Shown here: in pieces, positions 8,883-49,792 of the stretch
Layout of the letters: the number at the start of each line of letters is the position of its first letter
Position numbering within the stretch: position 1 is the first letter of the stretch
Assembly: GCF_012843435.1 (NCBI RefSeq)
Contig: NZ_JABAFC010000005.1
Coordinates: 62,001 to 126,000, forward strand
DNA from: Psychrobacillus sp. BL-248-WT-3
GTDB lineage: Bacteria > Bacillota > Bacilli > Bacillales_A > Planococcaceae
DNA: 64,000 nucleotides
Direction: 5' to 3'
The notes under the pieces: model-generated
Databases searched by the model: none
What the model saw: the letters and a program-made list of their open reading frames with translations, nothing else
Told to the model about the DNA's origin: nothing
Program-made: the position numbers and the translations under genes

Positions 8883-8950
8883 TTTTATACTCTCCTTTTT
8901 CACGTTCAAAATAAATCAATTCTCTTTATATTATCACGCTACTTATTTAA

Positions 8951-8982
8951 AATAAAGAAAAGCCCTCCAATTTTTGAAGGGC
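8951..8982 (-). terminator. terminator of the small-peptide gene
   Basis: On the minus strand GCCCTTC...GGAGGGC is followed by TTTTCTTTATTTT. It starts 12 bases after the 23-codon reading frame and separates it from rpoY. Confidence 0.8.
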
Positions 8983-8994
8983 AAGACATTTGAC

Positions 8995-9066
8995 TTAAGC
9001 AATAGTTTTGTTTCTGAGCATTCCGCCGAGTCGCCGCAACAGTTTTCTTTTCAAGCGTTTCAACAT
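8995..9066 (-). CDS. putative 23-residue cationic amphipathic peptide
   Basis: A short frame starts at ATG 9066 with AGGAGTGG upstream and begins MLKRLKRKLLRRLGG. It carries nine Lys/Arg and no acidic residue. Leucines fall at positions 2, 5, 9, 10 and 13, giving an amphipathic helix on a wheel. It has its own near-consensus promoter (9089-9117) and its own terminator (8951-8982), so it is a complete transcription unit of about 130 bases. The family is not recognised. It could act at membranes or bind nucleic acid, or the RNA itself could be the functional product. Confidence 0.6.
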   Translation of the reverse strand: MLKRLKRKLLRRLGGMLRNKTIA

Positions 9067-9088
9067 GGCAATCCACTCCTTATGACGT

Positions 9089-9117
9089 ATTATATATGAA
9101 ATTGTGGAGTTTGTAAA
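9089..9117 (-). promoter_or_regulatory. sigma-A promoter of the small-peptide gene
   Basis: On the minus strand TTTACA (9112-9117), a 17-base spacer and a perfect TATAAT (9089-9094). The start of transcription falls just before the ribosome binding site, giving a very short leader. Confidence 0.75.
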
Positions 9118-9169
9118 GGATTTTAACAGAAAAGTCAAATAATTTAACTTGAAAAGGGAGAAAAAAATA

Positions 9170-9943
9170 ATGGAAAAAAAAGTATTGATTTTCGATATAG
9201 ATGGAACCATTTTAGATTTAGAGAAAAATATTCCTGAAGGGGTAGAAGAAGCATTTAGACAAGCGAGAGAAAATGGACATATTACTGTAATCGCTACTGG
9301 GAGAGCACCATTTCTTGCTAAAGCAATCGTAGATCAACTTCAAATTGATTCTTATATAACTTATAATGGTCAAATTGTTCAATTTGAGGGCAAAACCATA
9401 CATAAAGGTGTTATAGATAAGGAAGAGCTTAAAAAACTTTCGGAGTTTGCAGCTTTGAAAGACCAACCTTTAGTATATATGGACAGTCATGAGATGGTTT
9501 CTAATGTACCTGATCATCAAGATGTAATTGAAAGTATTTCAACTTTAAAGGTCGGTTTTCCTAGACAGGCAGAAAACTTTTATTTAAATAATGATATTCA
9601 TCAGGCGCTTGTCTTTTGTGAAGAAGAAGTACAAGAGGAGTATGAACGTGCATTTCCTAACTTGTCCTTTGTAAGATGGCACAGAGTATCTTGTGATGTG
9701 CTCCCTAAAGGCATGTCTAAAGCTGTTGGGATTGAGATACTTTTAGAATACTTAGGAGAAACTCGTCAAAATGCAGTTGCATTCGGGGACGGATTAAATG
9801 ATGTAGAAATGCTGAAGTTCGTAGGTACAGGTGTAGCTATGGGAAATGCTGTAGATGAACTTAAAAAACACGCAACAATCGTTACAGAACATGTCTCAGA
9901 AAATGGTTTAGTAAATGCGATGAGGCAATTAAAGCTAATTTAA
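9170..9943 (+). CDS. ykrA: Cof-type HAD phosphatase YkrA
   Basis: 257-residue haloacid dehalogenase-superfamily phosphatase of the Cof (IIB cap) type. The nucleophile motif FDIDGTILD has Asp9 and Asp11. A PKGMSKAVGIE segment supplies the Lys, and the C-terminal FGDGLNDVEML binds Mg2+. ATG 9170 has AGGGAG at the right distance, while an upstream TTG (9149) would overlap this site. Such enzymes dephosphorylate sugar phosphates or cofactors, and the specific substrate is unknown. Its place between rpoY and def matches B. subtilis ykrA. Confidence 0.88.
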   Translation: MEKKVLIFDIDGTILDLEKNIPEGVEEAFRQARENGHITVIATGRAPFLAKAIVDQLQIDSYITYNGQIVQFEGKTIHKGVIDKEELKKLSEFAALKDQPLVYMDSHEMVSNVPDHQDVIESISTLKVGFPRQAENFYLNNDIHQALVFCEEEVQEEYERAFPNLSFVRWHRVSCDVLPKGMSKAVGIEILLEYLGETRQNAVAFGDGLNDVEMLKFVGTGVAMGNAVDELKKHATIVTEHVSENGLVNAMRQLKLI

Positions 9944-45449: not shown

Positions 45450-46517
45450 TTGAAAACTTTATTTCATATTTTAGTTGGCATGGCTATTATATTATTAATA
45501 TTCATATATTTTGATTCACCAGTTCGAGAAAATGATTTAATAACAGGTTCAAATAATAACGGCCAGCTAATTCCAGTTGAAAGAGAAGAAGTAGTCGAAA
45601 CCGTTAGTATATTCACCAGGCCGAAGGAGGGAATCTCCACTTTAATAGGTAAGTCAGTAAAGGAAGTGAGGGCCCTTTATGGAAATCCTGCTAGAATAGA
45701 CCCTTCCATTTATGGATATGAATGGTGGGTATATAATAAGACTTTCTCCGACTATATGTTAATAGGAGTTAAAGAAGACAAAGTAACACAAGCATTTGCA
45801 ATAGGAAATCATGTTGATACTTCCCCTTACAAGATTGGTCAGTCTCTTGAAGACATCTACCGGTTCACACTAGTGCAATCCGAAGTAACGATGAATATTG
45901 GCGACAACACATATATATTTTCCTTAAACGAAAATGATATTAAAACTAGACTGCTGGTTCAATTTGATGATTTGTTCGCGATGCTCTATATTGATCAAAA
46001 GGATCAACAGCTAGAGGCTGTCAGATTTAGTGACTCACAAACTCTTCTCATGCATAAACCGTATGATATTTTATATAGTGGGGAAGTCATTGAATCTAAA
46101 ACACCATCTTCCAATCTTCAAGTAAAGGCGGATAGAGCTACTGCTATCCAAGTTGTGGAGATAACAAATATTTTAAGGCTTCGACATGGGTTACGTGTTT
46201 TAGAATCAGACGTTAACCTCCAGAACTTGGCTGATATGCACAGTGAAGAGATGGCAAAGAATAATATTGTTACAAATGATAACTTTGAGATACCAAGGTT
46301 TAAAGATAAGCTTAAAGAAGCATCACTGGATTTTAATCGCGCTGGTGGTAATACTGCAGCTTTTTATTTTGATGCTGGAGAAGCTGTGAATGGTTGGTTG
46401 AATTCCCCAGACCATCGACAAACTTTATTAGGTAGGTCATATACTCATACCGGTGTAGGAGTTTACAGTAATTACTATACGCAAAACTTTATTGAGAAAA
46501 AAGATAATCTAGAATGA
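45450..46517 (+). CDS. ylbC: CAP-domain protein YlbC
   Basis: 355 residues. An N-terminal membrane anchor (about 4-20) precedes a CAP-associated N-terminal domain (LIGKSVKEVRALYGNPARID onward) and a C-terminal CAP/SCP domain (EITNILRLRHGLRVLESD, DMHSEEMAKNN, NSPDHRQTLL). Exported CAP proteins are often wall-associated. TTG 45450 has GAAGGAG upstream. Architecture and position after the cta genes match B. subtilis YlbC. It ends one base before the converging aspartokinase-like gene. Confidence 0.88.
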   Translation: MKTLFHILVGMAIILLIFIYFDSPVRENDLITGSNNNGQLIPVEREEVVETVSIFTRPKEGISTLIGKSVKEVRALYGNPARIDPSIYGYEWWVYNKTFSDYMLIGVKEDKVTQAFAIGNHVDTSPYKIGQSLEDIYRFTLVQSEVTMNIGDNTYIFSLNENDIKTRLLVQFDDLFAMLYIDQKDQQLEAVRFSDSQTLLMHKPYDILYSGEVIESKTPSSNLQVKADRATAIQVVEITNILRLRHGLRVLESDVNLQNLADMHSEEMAKNNIVTNDNFEIPRFKDKLKEASLDFNRAGGNTAAFYFDAGEAVNGWLNSPDHRQTLLGRSYTHTGVGVYSNYYTQNFIEKKDNLE

Positions 46518-47249
46518 TTATAGATGAACAAAAGTACCATTTGTTTCTTCGTACAAAGAGCGAATATGAAGTGGGACACTATGAAGGGCAGCAAAATTTG
46601 CTGCTCTTTTTTGTATGACTTCTACAGGTTCATTTATTTTAAGTTGGAGCTCATCATACGTCATATGGGATATTAACTCCACTTCGCTATTAGTAGAAGG
46701 ATCTGCTGACATCACTCCTGGCACATTCTTGTAAAATTCTACAACATCTGCTTTTAAATAATAGCCATATACGACAGCCGTTAAATCACTTCCTCCTCTT
46801 CCAAGGGTAGTAAAATTGTTACTACCTTCTGTAACTCCTTGAAACCCAGGAACTACGATACATGGGTAGTCCTCAAATGTTTTTAAAATTTGTGTGGTGT
46901 CTACATTATCTATATTTGCATTGCCAAATTCTTCGTTAGTAATAATCCCAGCATTTTTACCATACAAAATAGTTGATTGAACACCGTTTTGTTTCAATTC
47001 TGCTACTAGTACAGATGCACTAATGAGCTCTCCACATGCAGAAAGTAAATCTGTCTCTACACTGTGTGGCGAGCTTGGTATAAGGTCAAGCAATGTATCG
47101 GTAGAGTAATGCTGACCTCTTCTTCCCATGGCGGATACAACAACTAACACTTTCTTATGGGCAGTGATTGCTTTTTGGATTCTTTCGATGACTAATTGTC
47201 TATTCGAAGTATCCTGCATCGCAATTCCTCCATATTTTTGCACAATCAT
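46518..47249 (-). CDS. aspartokinase-like protein with catalytic domain only
   Basis: 243 residues of the amino acid kinase fold. The N-terminal VQKYGGIAM replaces the usual KYGGTS(V), and TTLGRGGSDLTAV and FYKNVPGVMSADP follow. Bacterial aspartokinases run to about 400 residues with two C-terminal ACT domains. Here the protein stops after the kinase domain, so lysine or threonine feedback inhibition through ACT domains should be absent. A DAP- or lysine-pathway role would suit the divergent MurE-like gene (inference). It could also be an inactive relative. ATG 47249 begins MIVQKYGG. Confidence 0.75.
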   Translation of the reverse strand: MIVQKYGGIAMQDTSNRQLVIERIQKAITAHKKVLVVVSAMGRRGQHYSTDTLLDLIPSSPHSVETDLLSACGELISASVLVAELKQNGVQSTILYGKNAGIITNEEFGNANIDNVDTTQILKTFEDYPCIVVPGFQGVTEGSNNFTTLGRGGSDLTAVVYGYYLKADVVEFYKNVPGVMSADPSTNSEVELISHMTYDELQLKINEPVEVIQKRAANFAALHSVPLHIRSLYEETNGTFVHL

Positions 47250-47271
47250 ATTTTCAACCACTCTTTTCGTG

Positions 47272-47299
47272 ACATTTCAAACACTCCGTTCATAAAATA
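47272..47299 (+). promoter_or_regulatory. possible SigK/mother-cell promoter for the MurE-like gene
   Basis: AC (47272-47273), 17 bases, then CATAAAATA (47291-47299) fits the known SigK pattern AC-16/17-CATAnnnTA. A start near 47306 would give a leader of about 50 bases. No sigma-A promoter is evident here. Confidence 0.45.
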
Positions 47300-47313
47300 C
47301 AAGGAATTCATTT

Positions 47314-47340
47314 TACTGTATGCGATTTAACAAGAATGGT
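47314..47340 (-). promoter_or_regulatory. possible SigK/SigE promoter for the aspartokinase-like gene
   Basis: On the minus strand AC (47339-47340), 16 bases, then CATACAGTA (47314-47322). The -10 fits both SigK (CATAnnnTA) and SigE (CATACAnT). It faces the opposite promoter, with the two -10 boxes only 14 bases apart. Confidence 0.45.
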
Positions 47341-47357
47341 GTAGGGAGTGAGCTACT

Positions 47358-48812
47358 ATTTATCCAATAAAAGAGCTATTAGAGGGTCTGGAATATAAGA
47401 TATTTGGAGATTTAAATGGTATAACGGTTCATCGTTTTATAGATCATTCCAAACAAATACAGCTTGGAGATGTATTTGTCTGGGAATCCAACAATCGTAC
47501 CTTTGTAGAAGAAGCAATCCAAAGAGGGGCTAATCTAGTCATTACTCAGCATTATATTCCAGACTGTAGTGTTCCACAAATCGTTCTTCCATCAGATATG
47601 TTTTTGCTAAAAGACAAGATTGCGTATTTAACCTATAAAAAATATGGACAAAAAATAAAGACAGTAGGCATTACAGGTACCAATGGCAAAACTACCGTTG
47701 CTTCTTTTATTGGGCAGCTATTGAAGCAACAACAGAAGTCAGTATGTGTAATTGGTACTCTAGGGGTCTATGTGAATGGTGAAAAATTGGAAAGACAATT
47801 TAGAAACAATACCACTCTACCTTTTTATGATTTCATCCAGGTAGTGAGGTATTGTTATGACCATGATGTGGAATACATCGTATTAGAAGCCTCTTCTCAA
47901 GGCTTGTTGGATAACCGATTAGGAAGTTATCCAATGGACGTAGCTGTATTTTTAAATATTGGAAAAGACCATCTAGAGTTTCATGGCGGGATGGTGCCAT
48001 ATAAAAAATCTAAGGAGCTACTCATTCCATTAGCGAGAAAGCTAGTAGTTAATAATAATGATGAATGGTGTCGTTCAATTGCACAAAAAGCATATATACC
48101 AACAATTCGATTCGGAAATCAGAAAGGTAACGATGTAATTTTTAGTAATGAAAAATATTTAAATGAAGAAGTTAAGTATGAATATGAAGTAAATGGAAAA
48201 GAGACGTCTGTCATCATGAGGAATAGTGGATATCATAATGGGATGAATTTAGCTGCTGCACTTGGTGCAATGTTAGGGCTTGGCCTCCCATGTGAGATGA
48301 TCTATCCAGTAAATTTACCGGCTGGAAGGCTACAAAGGGTACAGAATAATAAGGGGATTGAAGTATTGATAGACTACGCACATACACCTGATGCATTAGA
48401 AGCTTGTTTGTCTTCTATTACAGTTTATGCGAAGAAAAATATATTCGTTGTCTTTGGGTGTGGAGGAAATCGTGATAAGCAAAAGAGAAAATGGATGGGA
48501 GAGGTAGCTTCCAAATATGCTACTAAGGCAATTATCACTTCTGATAACCCACGAAATGAGGAACCAGAAGCAATTATCGCAGAGATTATTCAAGGGATAG
48601 ACCCTAGCAAGGTAATGGTGGAAGCTAATCGAAGAAATGCAATTCGCTTGGCATTAGCTACCGCTCAAGAAGGAGACGTCGTTCTAATAGCGGGAAAAGG
48701 GCATGAAAAAGAACAAATTATTAAAGAAGTTGTTTTACCCTTTTCTGATCTTGAAGTAGTTCAGTCTTATTTTGATGAAGGTGTAATAACAAAAAATGAT
48801 CCGGTTGCATGA
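47358..48812 (+). CDS. second MurE-like ligase, predicted meso-DAP-adding
   Basis: Mur ligase of about 484 residues if started at ATT 47358. This ATT lies 9 bases after GGGAGTGAG, and the frame is open from TGA 47349-47351. No ATG, GTG or TTG occurs in frame before 47598, which would cut off the N-terminal UDP-binding domain. Motifs: GITGTNGKTT (about 104-113), a YKKSKELL lysine likely to be carbamoylated, HTPDALE, then DNPR (about 396-399) and GKGHE. In MurE, DNPR and the Glu of GKGHE mark meso-diaminopimelate specificity. It lies outside any dcw cluster and diverges from an aspartokinase-like gene. Confidence 0.82.
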   Translation: MYPIKELLEGLEYKIFGDLNGITVHRFIDHSKQIQLGDVFVWESNNRTFVEEAIQRGANLVITQHYIPDCSVPQIVLPSDMFLLKDKIAYLTYKKYGQKIKTVGITGTNGKTTVASFIGQLLKQQQKSVCVIGTLGVYVNGEKLERQFRNNTTLPFYDFIQVVRYCYDHDVEYIVLEASSQGLLDNRLGSYPMDVAVFLNIGKDHLEFHGGMVPYKKSKELLIPLARKLVVNNNDEWCRSIAQKAYIPTIRFGNQKGNDVIFSNEKYLNEEVKYEYEVNGKETSVIMRNSGYHNGMNLAAALGAMLGLGLPCEMIYPVNLPAGRLQRVQNNKGIEVLIDYAHTPDALEACLSSITVYAKKNIFVVFGCGGNRDKQKRKWMGEVASKYATKAIITSDNPRNEEPEAIIAEIIQGIDPSKVMVEANRRNAIRLALATAQEGDVVLIAGKGHEKEQIIKEVVLPFSDLEVVQSYFDEGVITKNDPVA

Positions 48813-49258
48813 GCAATCTTTTTCCCATCCGGTTGGGTAACCGTGCATTCCATTACTAGCGTTTGTCTTCCTTTATGTAAGTACGTAGATGTAGCAATCA
48901 GTTGCTTTTCGGATGAAGCTTTTATGTAGTTAATCGTCATATTAGTTGTAACGGCACCTTTTCCTTCTGGATGAAGGTCTTTGTTCACTAAAAATCCCAT
49001 AGCATTATCGACCAAAGTTGCAATGACACCACCATGAGGCATATCAAAGCTGTTATGAATTAGTGGGGTAACAGGAAGTGTTACAATACATTGGTTGTCC
49101 TCAAAACGAGTGTCCATTTGAAACGTCGCATTTAGGTATGTAGGGGCAAGTCCTTCTTGTTTCTTTTTTAATCCGGTAAGGAAGTCTGTCAGTAAGCCTT
49201 TTTCCGTTTCTGAAGCTTCTTTTGTAACTTGTTCAAATAGAGTTTGTAAATTTTCCAT
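48767..49258 (-). CDS. PaaI-type hotdog thioesterase
   Basis: 163-residue hotdog-fold acyl-CoA thioesterase. The active-site region reads HNSFDMPHGGVIATLVDNAMG, with TTNMTINYIKAS in the core beta sheet. Members hydrolyse medium-chain or aryl acyl-CoA, and the substrate is unknown here. The stop lies inside the 3' end of the converging MurE-like gene (46-base overlap), so the two transcripts share an antisense region. Confidence 0.87.
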   Translation of the reverse strand: MENLQTLFEQVTKEASETEKGLLTDFLTGLKKKQEGLAPTYLNATFQMDTRFEDNQCIVTLPVTPLIHNSFDMPHGGVIATLVDNAMGFLVNKDLHPEGKGAVTTNMTINYIKASSEKQLIATSTYLHKGRQTLVMECTVTQPDGKKIAHATGSFFVITPSSK

Positions 49259-49342
49259 AGAAATTCTCCTAACACTTAAGTTATTAGTTTAACAATTGTC
49301 TCCAGTTTTCTGTTATGATAAACAGGATTGGAGGTTTTATTT

Positions 49343-49792
49343 ATGATTATGACTGATGAATGGGTGGATATAATGGATCACTCAGACCTATTATGTACAA
49401 TGATTTTATCCTCTGAACCATTTTACCTTTACTTAAATGCACATCGTGCTGTATATACAAAACCTGAACTAGTGCGGGAAATCAACAGCTTTACCCGACT
49501 GAAGGACCAATATGAAGAGGTTCAACGCTTTGGAAAATACCATCCAGATTACTCAAGAGTCATGAAAGACATTCGTGTAACTAAACGTAATCTTGATATG
49601 GTAGATGAAATAGCAGCTCTTAAGGTGGCTGAAAACGAGTTACAGGACCTCCTCGATGAGGTAAGCTTGATTATTGGTAAAACAGTCTCAGAAGGAGTCA
49701 AAGTACCTGTAAGTAATCCATTTTTCGCTTCTAGCGGTTCAAGCTGCGGTAGTGGCTGTGGAACCGGCGGGTCGTGCTCTTGCTCAGCTTAA
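49343..49792 (+). CDS. ylbF: RicF/YlbF, regulator of biofilm formation, competence and sporulation
   Basis: 149 residues of the YlbF/YmcA family, with a helical N-terminal domain and a Cys-rich tail (SSCGSGCGTGGSCSCSA) that can bind an iron-sulfur cluster. In B. subtilis YlbF (RicF), YmcA and YaaT form a complex that promotes RNase Y-dependent mRNA maturation and Spo0A-linked development. ATG 49343 has TTGGAGGT upstream. Confidence 0.92.
   Translation: MIMTDEWVDIMDHSDLLCTMILSSEPFYLYLNAHRAVYTKPELVREINSFTRLKDQYEEVQRFGKYHPDYSRVMKDIRVTKRNLDMVDEIAALKVAENELQDLLDEVSLIIGKTVSEGVKVPVSNPFFASSGSSCGSGCGTGGSCSCSA

Follow-up and report, generated by a model that had tools for sequence, protein, structure and literature searches.

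The window, by which we mean the whole 64,000-nucleotide stretch of DNA that was analyzed, carries an additional MurE-like ligase gene, termed here MurE2. Genome comparison gives strong support to its being a sporulation gene. MurE2 is probably the mother-cell ligase that adds DAP for the spore cortex in cells that build their growing wall with a different diamino acid, and a neighboring ACT-less aspartokinase may raise the DAP flux; the DAP activity of the ligase and the role of the kinase are what we infer from the sequence. The features concerned are as follows.

45450..46517, + strand: YlbC-like CAP-domain gene, flanking marker (domain match; synteny)
46518..47249, - strand: ACT-less aspartokinase, 243 aa from the ATG at 47249 (AA_kinase, NCBIfam, PDB relatives)
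47267..47299, + strand: promoter-like element TCGTGACAT-N15-CATAAAATA for MurE2 (pattern match)
47315..47323, - strand: CATACAGTA, -10-like box for the kinase (alignment read by eye)
47343..47348, + strand: Shine-Dalgarno sequence AGGGAG, 9 nt 5' of the MurE2 AUU (sequence)
47358..47360, + strand: AUU (ATT) start codon of MurE2 (same-genus comparison, 17/17)
47358..48812, + strand: putative MurE2 ligase gene, 484 aa from AUU (Pfam/NCBIfam, N-terminal domain, synteny, tree, pLDDT 89.9)
48543..48554, + strand: DNPR motif of MurE2 (sequence, alignment to solved MurE)
48693..48707, + strand: GKGHE motif of MurE2 (sequence, alignment)
48767..49258, - strand: hotdog thioesterase, flanking marker (domain match; not kept in every genus)
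49328..49792, + strand: YlbF, flanking marker (Com_YlbF match; synteny)

The MurE2 gene, its surroundings and its start codon

MurE2 and the kinase gene, which are divergent, sit between the YlbC-like gene and the thioesterase-YlbF pair, the last 46 nt of MurE2 being shared with the thioesterase gene. Of 56 loci, 54 have YlbC next to MurE2 and 53 have YlbF at its opposite flank, the loci without one or the other match being short stretches or holding unmatched genes. In B. subtilis this place is presumably occupied by ylbD-ylbE. The initial annotation had put the ligase outside any cell-wall cluster, and this was borne out: mraZ of the dcw cluster lies ~20 kb downstream of MurE2 (on L009), and no murE was found between spoVD and mraY in the dcw cluster of the window's genome. 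A transposase-like gene (L009:48-1133) was observed beyond the end of the window, ahead of the dcw cluster, with no plasmid match found.

MurE2 matched Pfam Mur_ligase_M and Mur_ligase_C. Scored as a 404-aa part, it gave 359.1 bits with the murE model TIGR01085 (cut-off, 257.3) and narrowly missed the DAP-ligase model NF001126 (371.5 versus 373). The P-loop TGTNGKTT, taken as a test of the MurE family, was invariant in 27/27 aligned MurE2 sequences. The 404-aa part corresponds to the ORF 47598-48812, which begins at the first ATG/GTG/TTG and is without an N-terminal domain. The frame is open from 47349, the upstream part codes for a MurE-type N-terminal domain that is present only if the gene is read from AUU, and solved MurE structures align with MurE2 from residue 28. 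Since the N-terminal domain is encoded upstream of 47598, reading must begin at the ATT at 47358-47360 for MurE2 to reach its full length of 484 aa. The annotated full-length Mur ligase with DNPR and GKGHE is thus confirmed, with the correction that it is full length only from this AUU.

It is extremely improbable that the AUU start has been misread and that translation yields a short ligase lacking the N-terminal domain, beginning at the ATG at 47598, the earliest standard start codon of the frame. Codons 2-80 exhibited dN < dS in 7/7 pairs (dN, 0.09 to 0.17; dS, 0.44 to 2.4), and ATT was found at the start in 17/17 same-genus genomes (16 rows in the start-codon column of the codon alignment), with the two preceding codons variable and an in-frame TGA just 5' of those two codons in 5 of the 17. 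The Shine-Dalgarno sequence was AGGGAG in 16/17 of these genomes and AGGAAG in L040, and the other genera have standard starts (ATG, GTG, TTG) near the matching place, as picked by script according to Shine-Dalgarno fit. The AlphaFold model of MurE2, built with 27 sequences, had a mean pLDDT of 89.9 (80 to 94 over residues 1 to 90). A second oddity of this locus that is open to test is a developmental gene whose AUU start has been retained throughout a genus.

Distribution of MurE2 and its promoter-like element

The sample comprised 151 genomes of the family, with sporulation scored by one marker gene, spoIVA (PF09547). SpoIVA was matched in 117/151 genomes, the match of G098 being cut by a contig end, and was broken in three (G001, G038, and G053). 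An open MurE2 frame was present in 114/114 genomes with an unbroken spoIVA (109 by BLAST, four g3 genomes and G020 by profile), and in the remaining 37/37 genomes MurE2 was not found or was a relic, so that agreement with the spoIVA state was 151/151. By BLAST, the four g3 genomes had appeared to be exceptions; this was rejected, as a profile search and reading of the locus located MurE2 at its usual place. The G020 gene, an open frame of ~430 aa with a poorly matching N terminus and GKGNE, was counted as present and was placed with the MurE2 clade, on a long branch. Its profile scores were only 141 and 117 bits, so low that the profile could overlook a gene of equal divergence in the 22 non-sporing genomes other than the 12 in which the ylb site was read. 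Presence of the gene and sporulation are both inherited, and the 151 genomes amount to far fewer independent events.

In the three genomes with a broken spoIVA, only C-terminal pieces of MurE2 were left between intact YlbC and thioesterase-YlbF genes. Stops occurred in all three frames of the relic intervals, though the frame of the surviving piece in G001 has just one, and in G053 a kinase remnant was left beside the MurE2 relic. The best profile matches of the 34 SpoIVA-negative genomes scored 369 to 412 bits; the 10 of these 34 that were read were all DDPR proteins, and 18 lower matches read from at most 10 such genomes comprised 11 of a type called C11 (see below) and 7 of another type. 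None of the 20 MurE-like proteins from non-sporing genomes placed by FastTree (the 18 lower and 2 best matches) fell in the MurE2 clade. Similarly, the 1.5 kb upstream of ylbF held neither MurE2 nor the kinase in 12/12 non-sporing genomes read (of the 34), YlbC being present in 11. Small C-terminal Mur pieces without ylb neighbors were seen in non-sporing G087 and G012; the former is closer to the DDPR clade, and the latter, which lies where a contig ends, had a slightly higher score with one of the MurE2 queries. The DDPR-clade tree suggests a minimum of four losses of MurE2 (in g2, in g6, in g16, and in g7 together with g12).

The pattern TCGTGWCAT-N10-20-CATANNNTA, which was drawn from these same loci, had a single match in the window, the MurE2 element, and none in 100 shuffles. 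CATANNNTA was found within 110 nt upstream in 48/53 MurE2 loci, a count that left out the same-species copy L025 and copy L053. With one locus per genus the figure was 11/12, against a shuffle mean of 0.44 and maximum of 3 (300 shuffles). Among controls, the box preceded 1/20 DDPR-clade genes (their starts being approximate) and 4/53 window ORFs of at least 150 aa, one of them the kinase. It was absent in g3 loci L048 and L085, incomplete in L079, L083, and L084, and off its usual place in g4 loci L075 and L088, one of which is the genus representative. The same box lies upstream of spoIVA and spoVD in the window's own genome and was found in 0/16 dpaA upstream regions. On the opposite strand, the kinase box was in the same place in 16/16 same-genus rows, as read by eye. 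A short ORF preceding the start of the kinase gene was set aside, as it seemed to be explained by the MurE2 -35-like element on the other strand.

Upstream of MurE2, the -10-like box is enriched and the -35 is not decisive. By the usual sigma consensus CATANNNTA would be a box of the sigma-E/sigma-K type; a literature search for the consensus turned up nothing, and sigma-E and sigma-K are not separable from the CATANNNTA sequence alone.

Other MurE-like genes and the specificity motifs

BLAST of MurE2 against the 151 genomes gave strong matches in 109 genomes and weaker ones of ~30 to 36% identity. The MurE tree across the family that had been called for resolved MurE2 as one clade and a DDPR-type MurE as another: in the 76-row tree these comprised 31 and 20 rows, respectively, each with support of 100/100. 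The DDPR clade occurs in non-sporing genera too. A contig scan gave 80 loci, one being a MurE2 in Sporosarcina highlanderae, which groups with g3; the other 79 were taken as other MurE from the listing, and 13 of them entered the tree.

The two clades also separated when their specificity motifs were compared, MurE2 having the DAP-type DN-x-R and GKGHE as opposed to the DDPR of the clade shared with non-sporing genera. The MurE2 motif is DN[PACS]R, with DNAR, DNSR, or DNCR in some orthologs, whereas DDPR was found in 22/22 DDPR-clade proteins read, from 12 genera, with D at the N414 position. The N and R of DNPR align with N414 and R416 of E. coli MurE and were invariant in 27/27 aligned MurE2 sequences. 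The same holds for all of R389, N414, R416, G464, and E468, which are identical in MurE2 and which we take to be the DAP contacts of the E. coli enzyme. GKGHE was likewise invariant in 27/27, the diverged G020 copy being outside this alignment. DNPR predicts, but does not prove, the use of DAP by MurE2.

A search for murE elsewhere in the window's genome, another step proposed with the initial annotation, found two further MurE-like genes, C88 and C11, so MurE2 is not its only murE. C88 (L010:9218-10768; 516 aa) is without DNPR or GKGHE. It was present at ≥67% identity in 17/17 genomes of the window's genus and 4/4 g2 genomes, and at ≤35% identity in the other 130. C11 (L011:6797-8285) has DDLNG and GKGNE; it is frameshifted in the window's assembly and split in two frames, and is intact in the same-species genome G095. 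The C11 type (DDLN[GS]) also occurs in non-sporing genera, where it made up 11/20 of the MurE-like proteins read, and its 89% identity in one case between g2 and g7 suggests transfer. A vegetative role in the window's genus was considered for it and rejected, since it coexists with a DDPR MurE in non-sporing genomes: the two occur together in four genomes (G007, G012, G026 and others by score), and the C11 type thus looks accessory. C88 is now likelier than C11 as the vegetative ligase of the window's genus, and we regard this role as likely; its substrate, at a guess, might be a third, less usual amino acid, for instance ornithine. At least two extra MurE-like ligases, of a DDLNS type and a VDHPG type, were also observed in several non-sporing genomes (L270-L287).

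We considered whether MurE2 might instead be the ordinary vegetative DAP ligase, moved out of the dcw cluster, in a genus whose wall contains DAP. This would account for the DNPR motif, which MurE2 alone carries among the three MurE-like genes of the window's genome, for a dcw cluster devoid of murE, and for the failure to find the DDPR clade in the window's genus. However, in genomes with a broken or missing spoIVA, MurE2 was either a wreck or not found, though such cells still grow walls, and a sporulation-type promoter box lies upstream of it. Other candidates for the vegetative role are also at hand, C88 in all genomes of the window's genus and a DDPR MurE in 12 other genera, and we consider the explanation very improbable. 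Rather less improbable, though still unlikely, is that MurE2 is a sporulation ligase that does not supply cortex DAP but adds another amino acid or acts on the germ cell wall or on recycled peptide. The distribution and the promoter box argue for sporulation, not for a substrate, and the N-terminal part of MurE2 in the window's genus has diverged from that of other genera; on the other side, the DAP-type residues are invariant and the high-confidence model is that of a complete ligase. We therefore retain a cortex DAP ligase as the preferred reading. As proposed, MurE2 would be a MurE dedicated to sporulation, with mother-cell expression driven by a promoter of the sigma-E/sigma-K type, and, judging from its residues, would add meso-DAP to UDP-MurNAc-L-Ala-D-Glu. 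The vegetative MurE, of the DDPR clade in the 12 genera read and probably C88 in the window's genus, would add another diamino acid, so that the cortex precursors would still carry DAP.

The ACT-less aspartokinase and relation to known systems

The divergent aspartokinase-like protein was confirmed as annotated: its 243 aa (a GTG start at 47261 being also possible) match only the AA_kinase domain in Pfam, with the regulatory ACT domains absent. Its relatives are open frames of 237 to 318 aa. The best PDB relatives are aspartokinases, and the best NCBIfam model was NF006068, below a cut-off that is set for full-length enzymes. The motifs K[FY]GG, GE, and GRGGSD are kept. The best reading of the sequence is a DapG-type kinase that has lost its sensors. 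The gene was present in 58/151 genomes, comprising all sampled members of g1, g3, g4, g5, g11, and g17 plus G020, and was not found in six MurE2-bearing genera (g10, g13, g14, g15, g18, and g19), and is thus no obligatory partner of MurE2 in a module. One short kinase frame (288 aa, 37%) was seen in non-sporing G028.

The own-genome operon order is dpaA-dpaB-asd-gap-dapA, and no dapG or other aspartokinase was found in 5/5 dpaA-dpaB-asd-dapA operons examined (the own genome and four others). In the own genome the DpaA_N model gave no match, and a divergent DpaA-like gene without it (L252:2359-3141; own C23) is followed by dpaB and asd. TIGR02853 matched 150/151 genomes, none above cut-off, with best E values of ~1e-8 to 1e-26 in spore formers and ~1e-4 to 1e-8 in the others (g2 overlapping). 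A repeated GC-rich sequence of the GGCGCCTGCGCTTTTC type occupies L252:4861-5400, in the gap where dapG would lie; similar sequence was seen by eye near the C11 murE (L011, ~8900-9400) and none in the window.

The idea that the pair could supply DAP to the cortex is supported for the ligase by the spoIVA agreement, the relics, the promoter box, and the DAP-type motif. For the kinase, membership of a spore-cortex module did not hold in the six genera without it, and a feedback-resistant enzyme feeding DAP and dipicolinate synthesis is the weaker proposal, favored by the adjacency, the motifs, the lack of ACT domains, and the operons without dapG. It is quite conceivable, though we lean away from it, that the kinase is unrelated to MurE2, having only the intergenic region in common, and serves dipicolinate alone or is inactive. 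The six genera with MurE2 alone are in keeping with this, and the operons without dapG make a link to dipicolinate as likely. Set against it, 58/58 copies lie within 105 to 374 bp of MurE2, the remnant in G053 decays with MurE2, and K-x-GG, GE, and GRGGSD are invariant in 23/23 aligned sequences, though G020 has ERGGSD. In the reading that we prefer, the kinase would push more flux into DAP and thereby into cortex and dipicolinate, unchecked by end-product feedback.

We lean, by a narrow margin, toward a wider reading in which MurE2 would fill a gap, as the gene behind the first cortex-specific enzyme in spore formers with a lysine or ornithine wall. Spore formers across the family would keep an extra mother-cell MurE, leaving the cortex DAP-based whatever the growing wall uses, and a sensor-less aspartokinase, back to back with MurE2 in about half of the genera, would let DAP accumulate for cortex and dipicolinate. 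MurE2 is thus a testable candidate gene for an activity reportedly found about fifty years ago. It raises the question of why one and the same cell must put DAP into its cortex and yet does without it in the growing wall. A review (PMC4015370) counts the reason for the choice between lysine and DAP in different species among the unknowns, and bacteria with both kinds of wall in a single cell offer a natural experiment on this choice.

MurE2 has in common with E. coli MurE (PDB 1e8c), the UDP-MurNAc-L-Ala-D-Glu:meso-DAP ligase, the DNPR and GKGHE motifs and the presumed DAP-contact residues. Unlike that enzyme, it is an additional MurE in the ylb region, tracks sporulation, and has a sporulation-type promoter box and, in the window's genus, an AUU start. 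The DDPR-clade MurE, putatively vegetative, belongs to the same enzyme family at ~30 to 36% identity but has DDPR in place of DN-x-R, occurs in non-sporing genera too, and in 19/20 cases is without the CATANNNTA box. The best PDB sequence match of MurE2 is the MurE of 4bub, presumably from Thermotoga maritima, which has DDPR as the DDPR clade does and whose record says lysine ligase. DapG is the aspartokinase of the B. subtilis dpa operon. The best NCBIfam match of the kinase, NF006068/PRK08210, is one that we take to be of the DapG type; unlike DapG, the kinase has no ACT domains, adjoins MurE2, and was not found in the dpa operons examined.

In Bacillus sphaericus, the vegetative wall contains lysine and the cortex DAP, and a DAP-adding activity reportedly appeared at sporulation in extracts studied by Tipper and Pratt and by Linnett and Tipper. 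To our knowledge no gene was assigned to it, and no published identification of such a gene was found in the literature searched, most subscription journals being outside its coverage. MurE2 is predicted to match that activity in reaction, timing, and cell type, the B. sphaericus case being an activity in extracts and MurE2 a gene from sequence.
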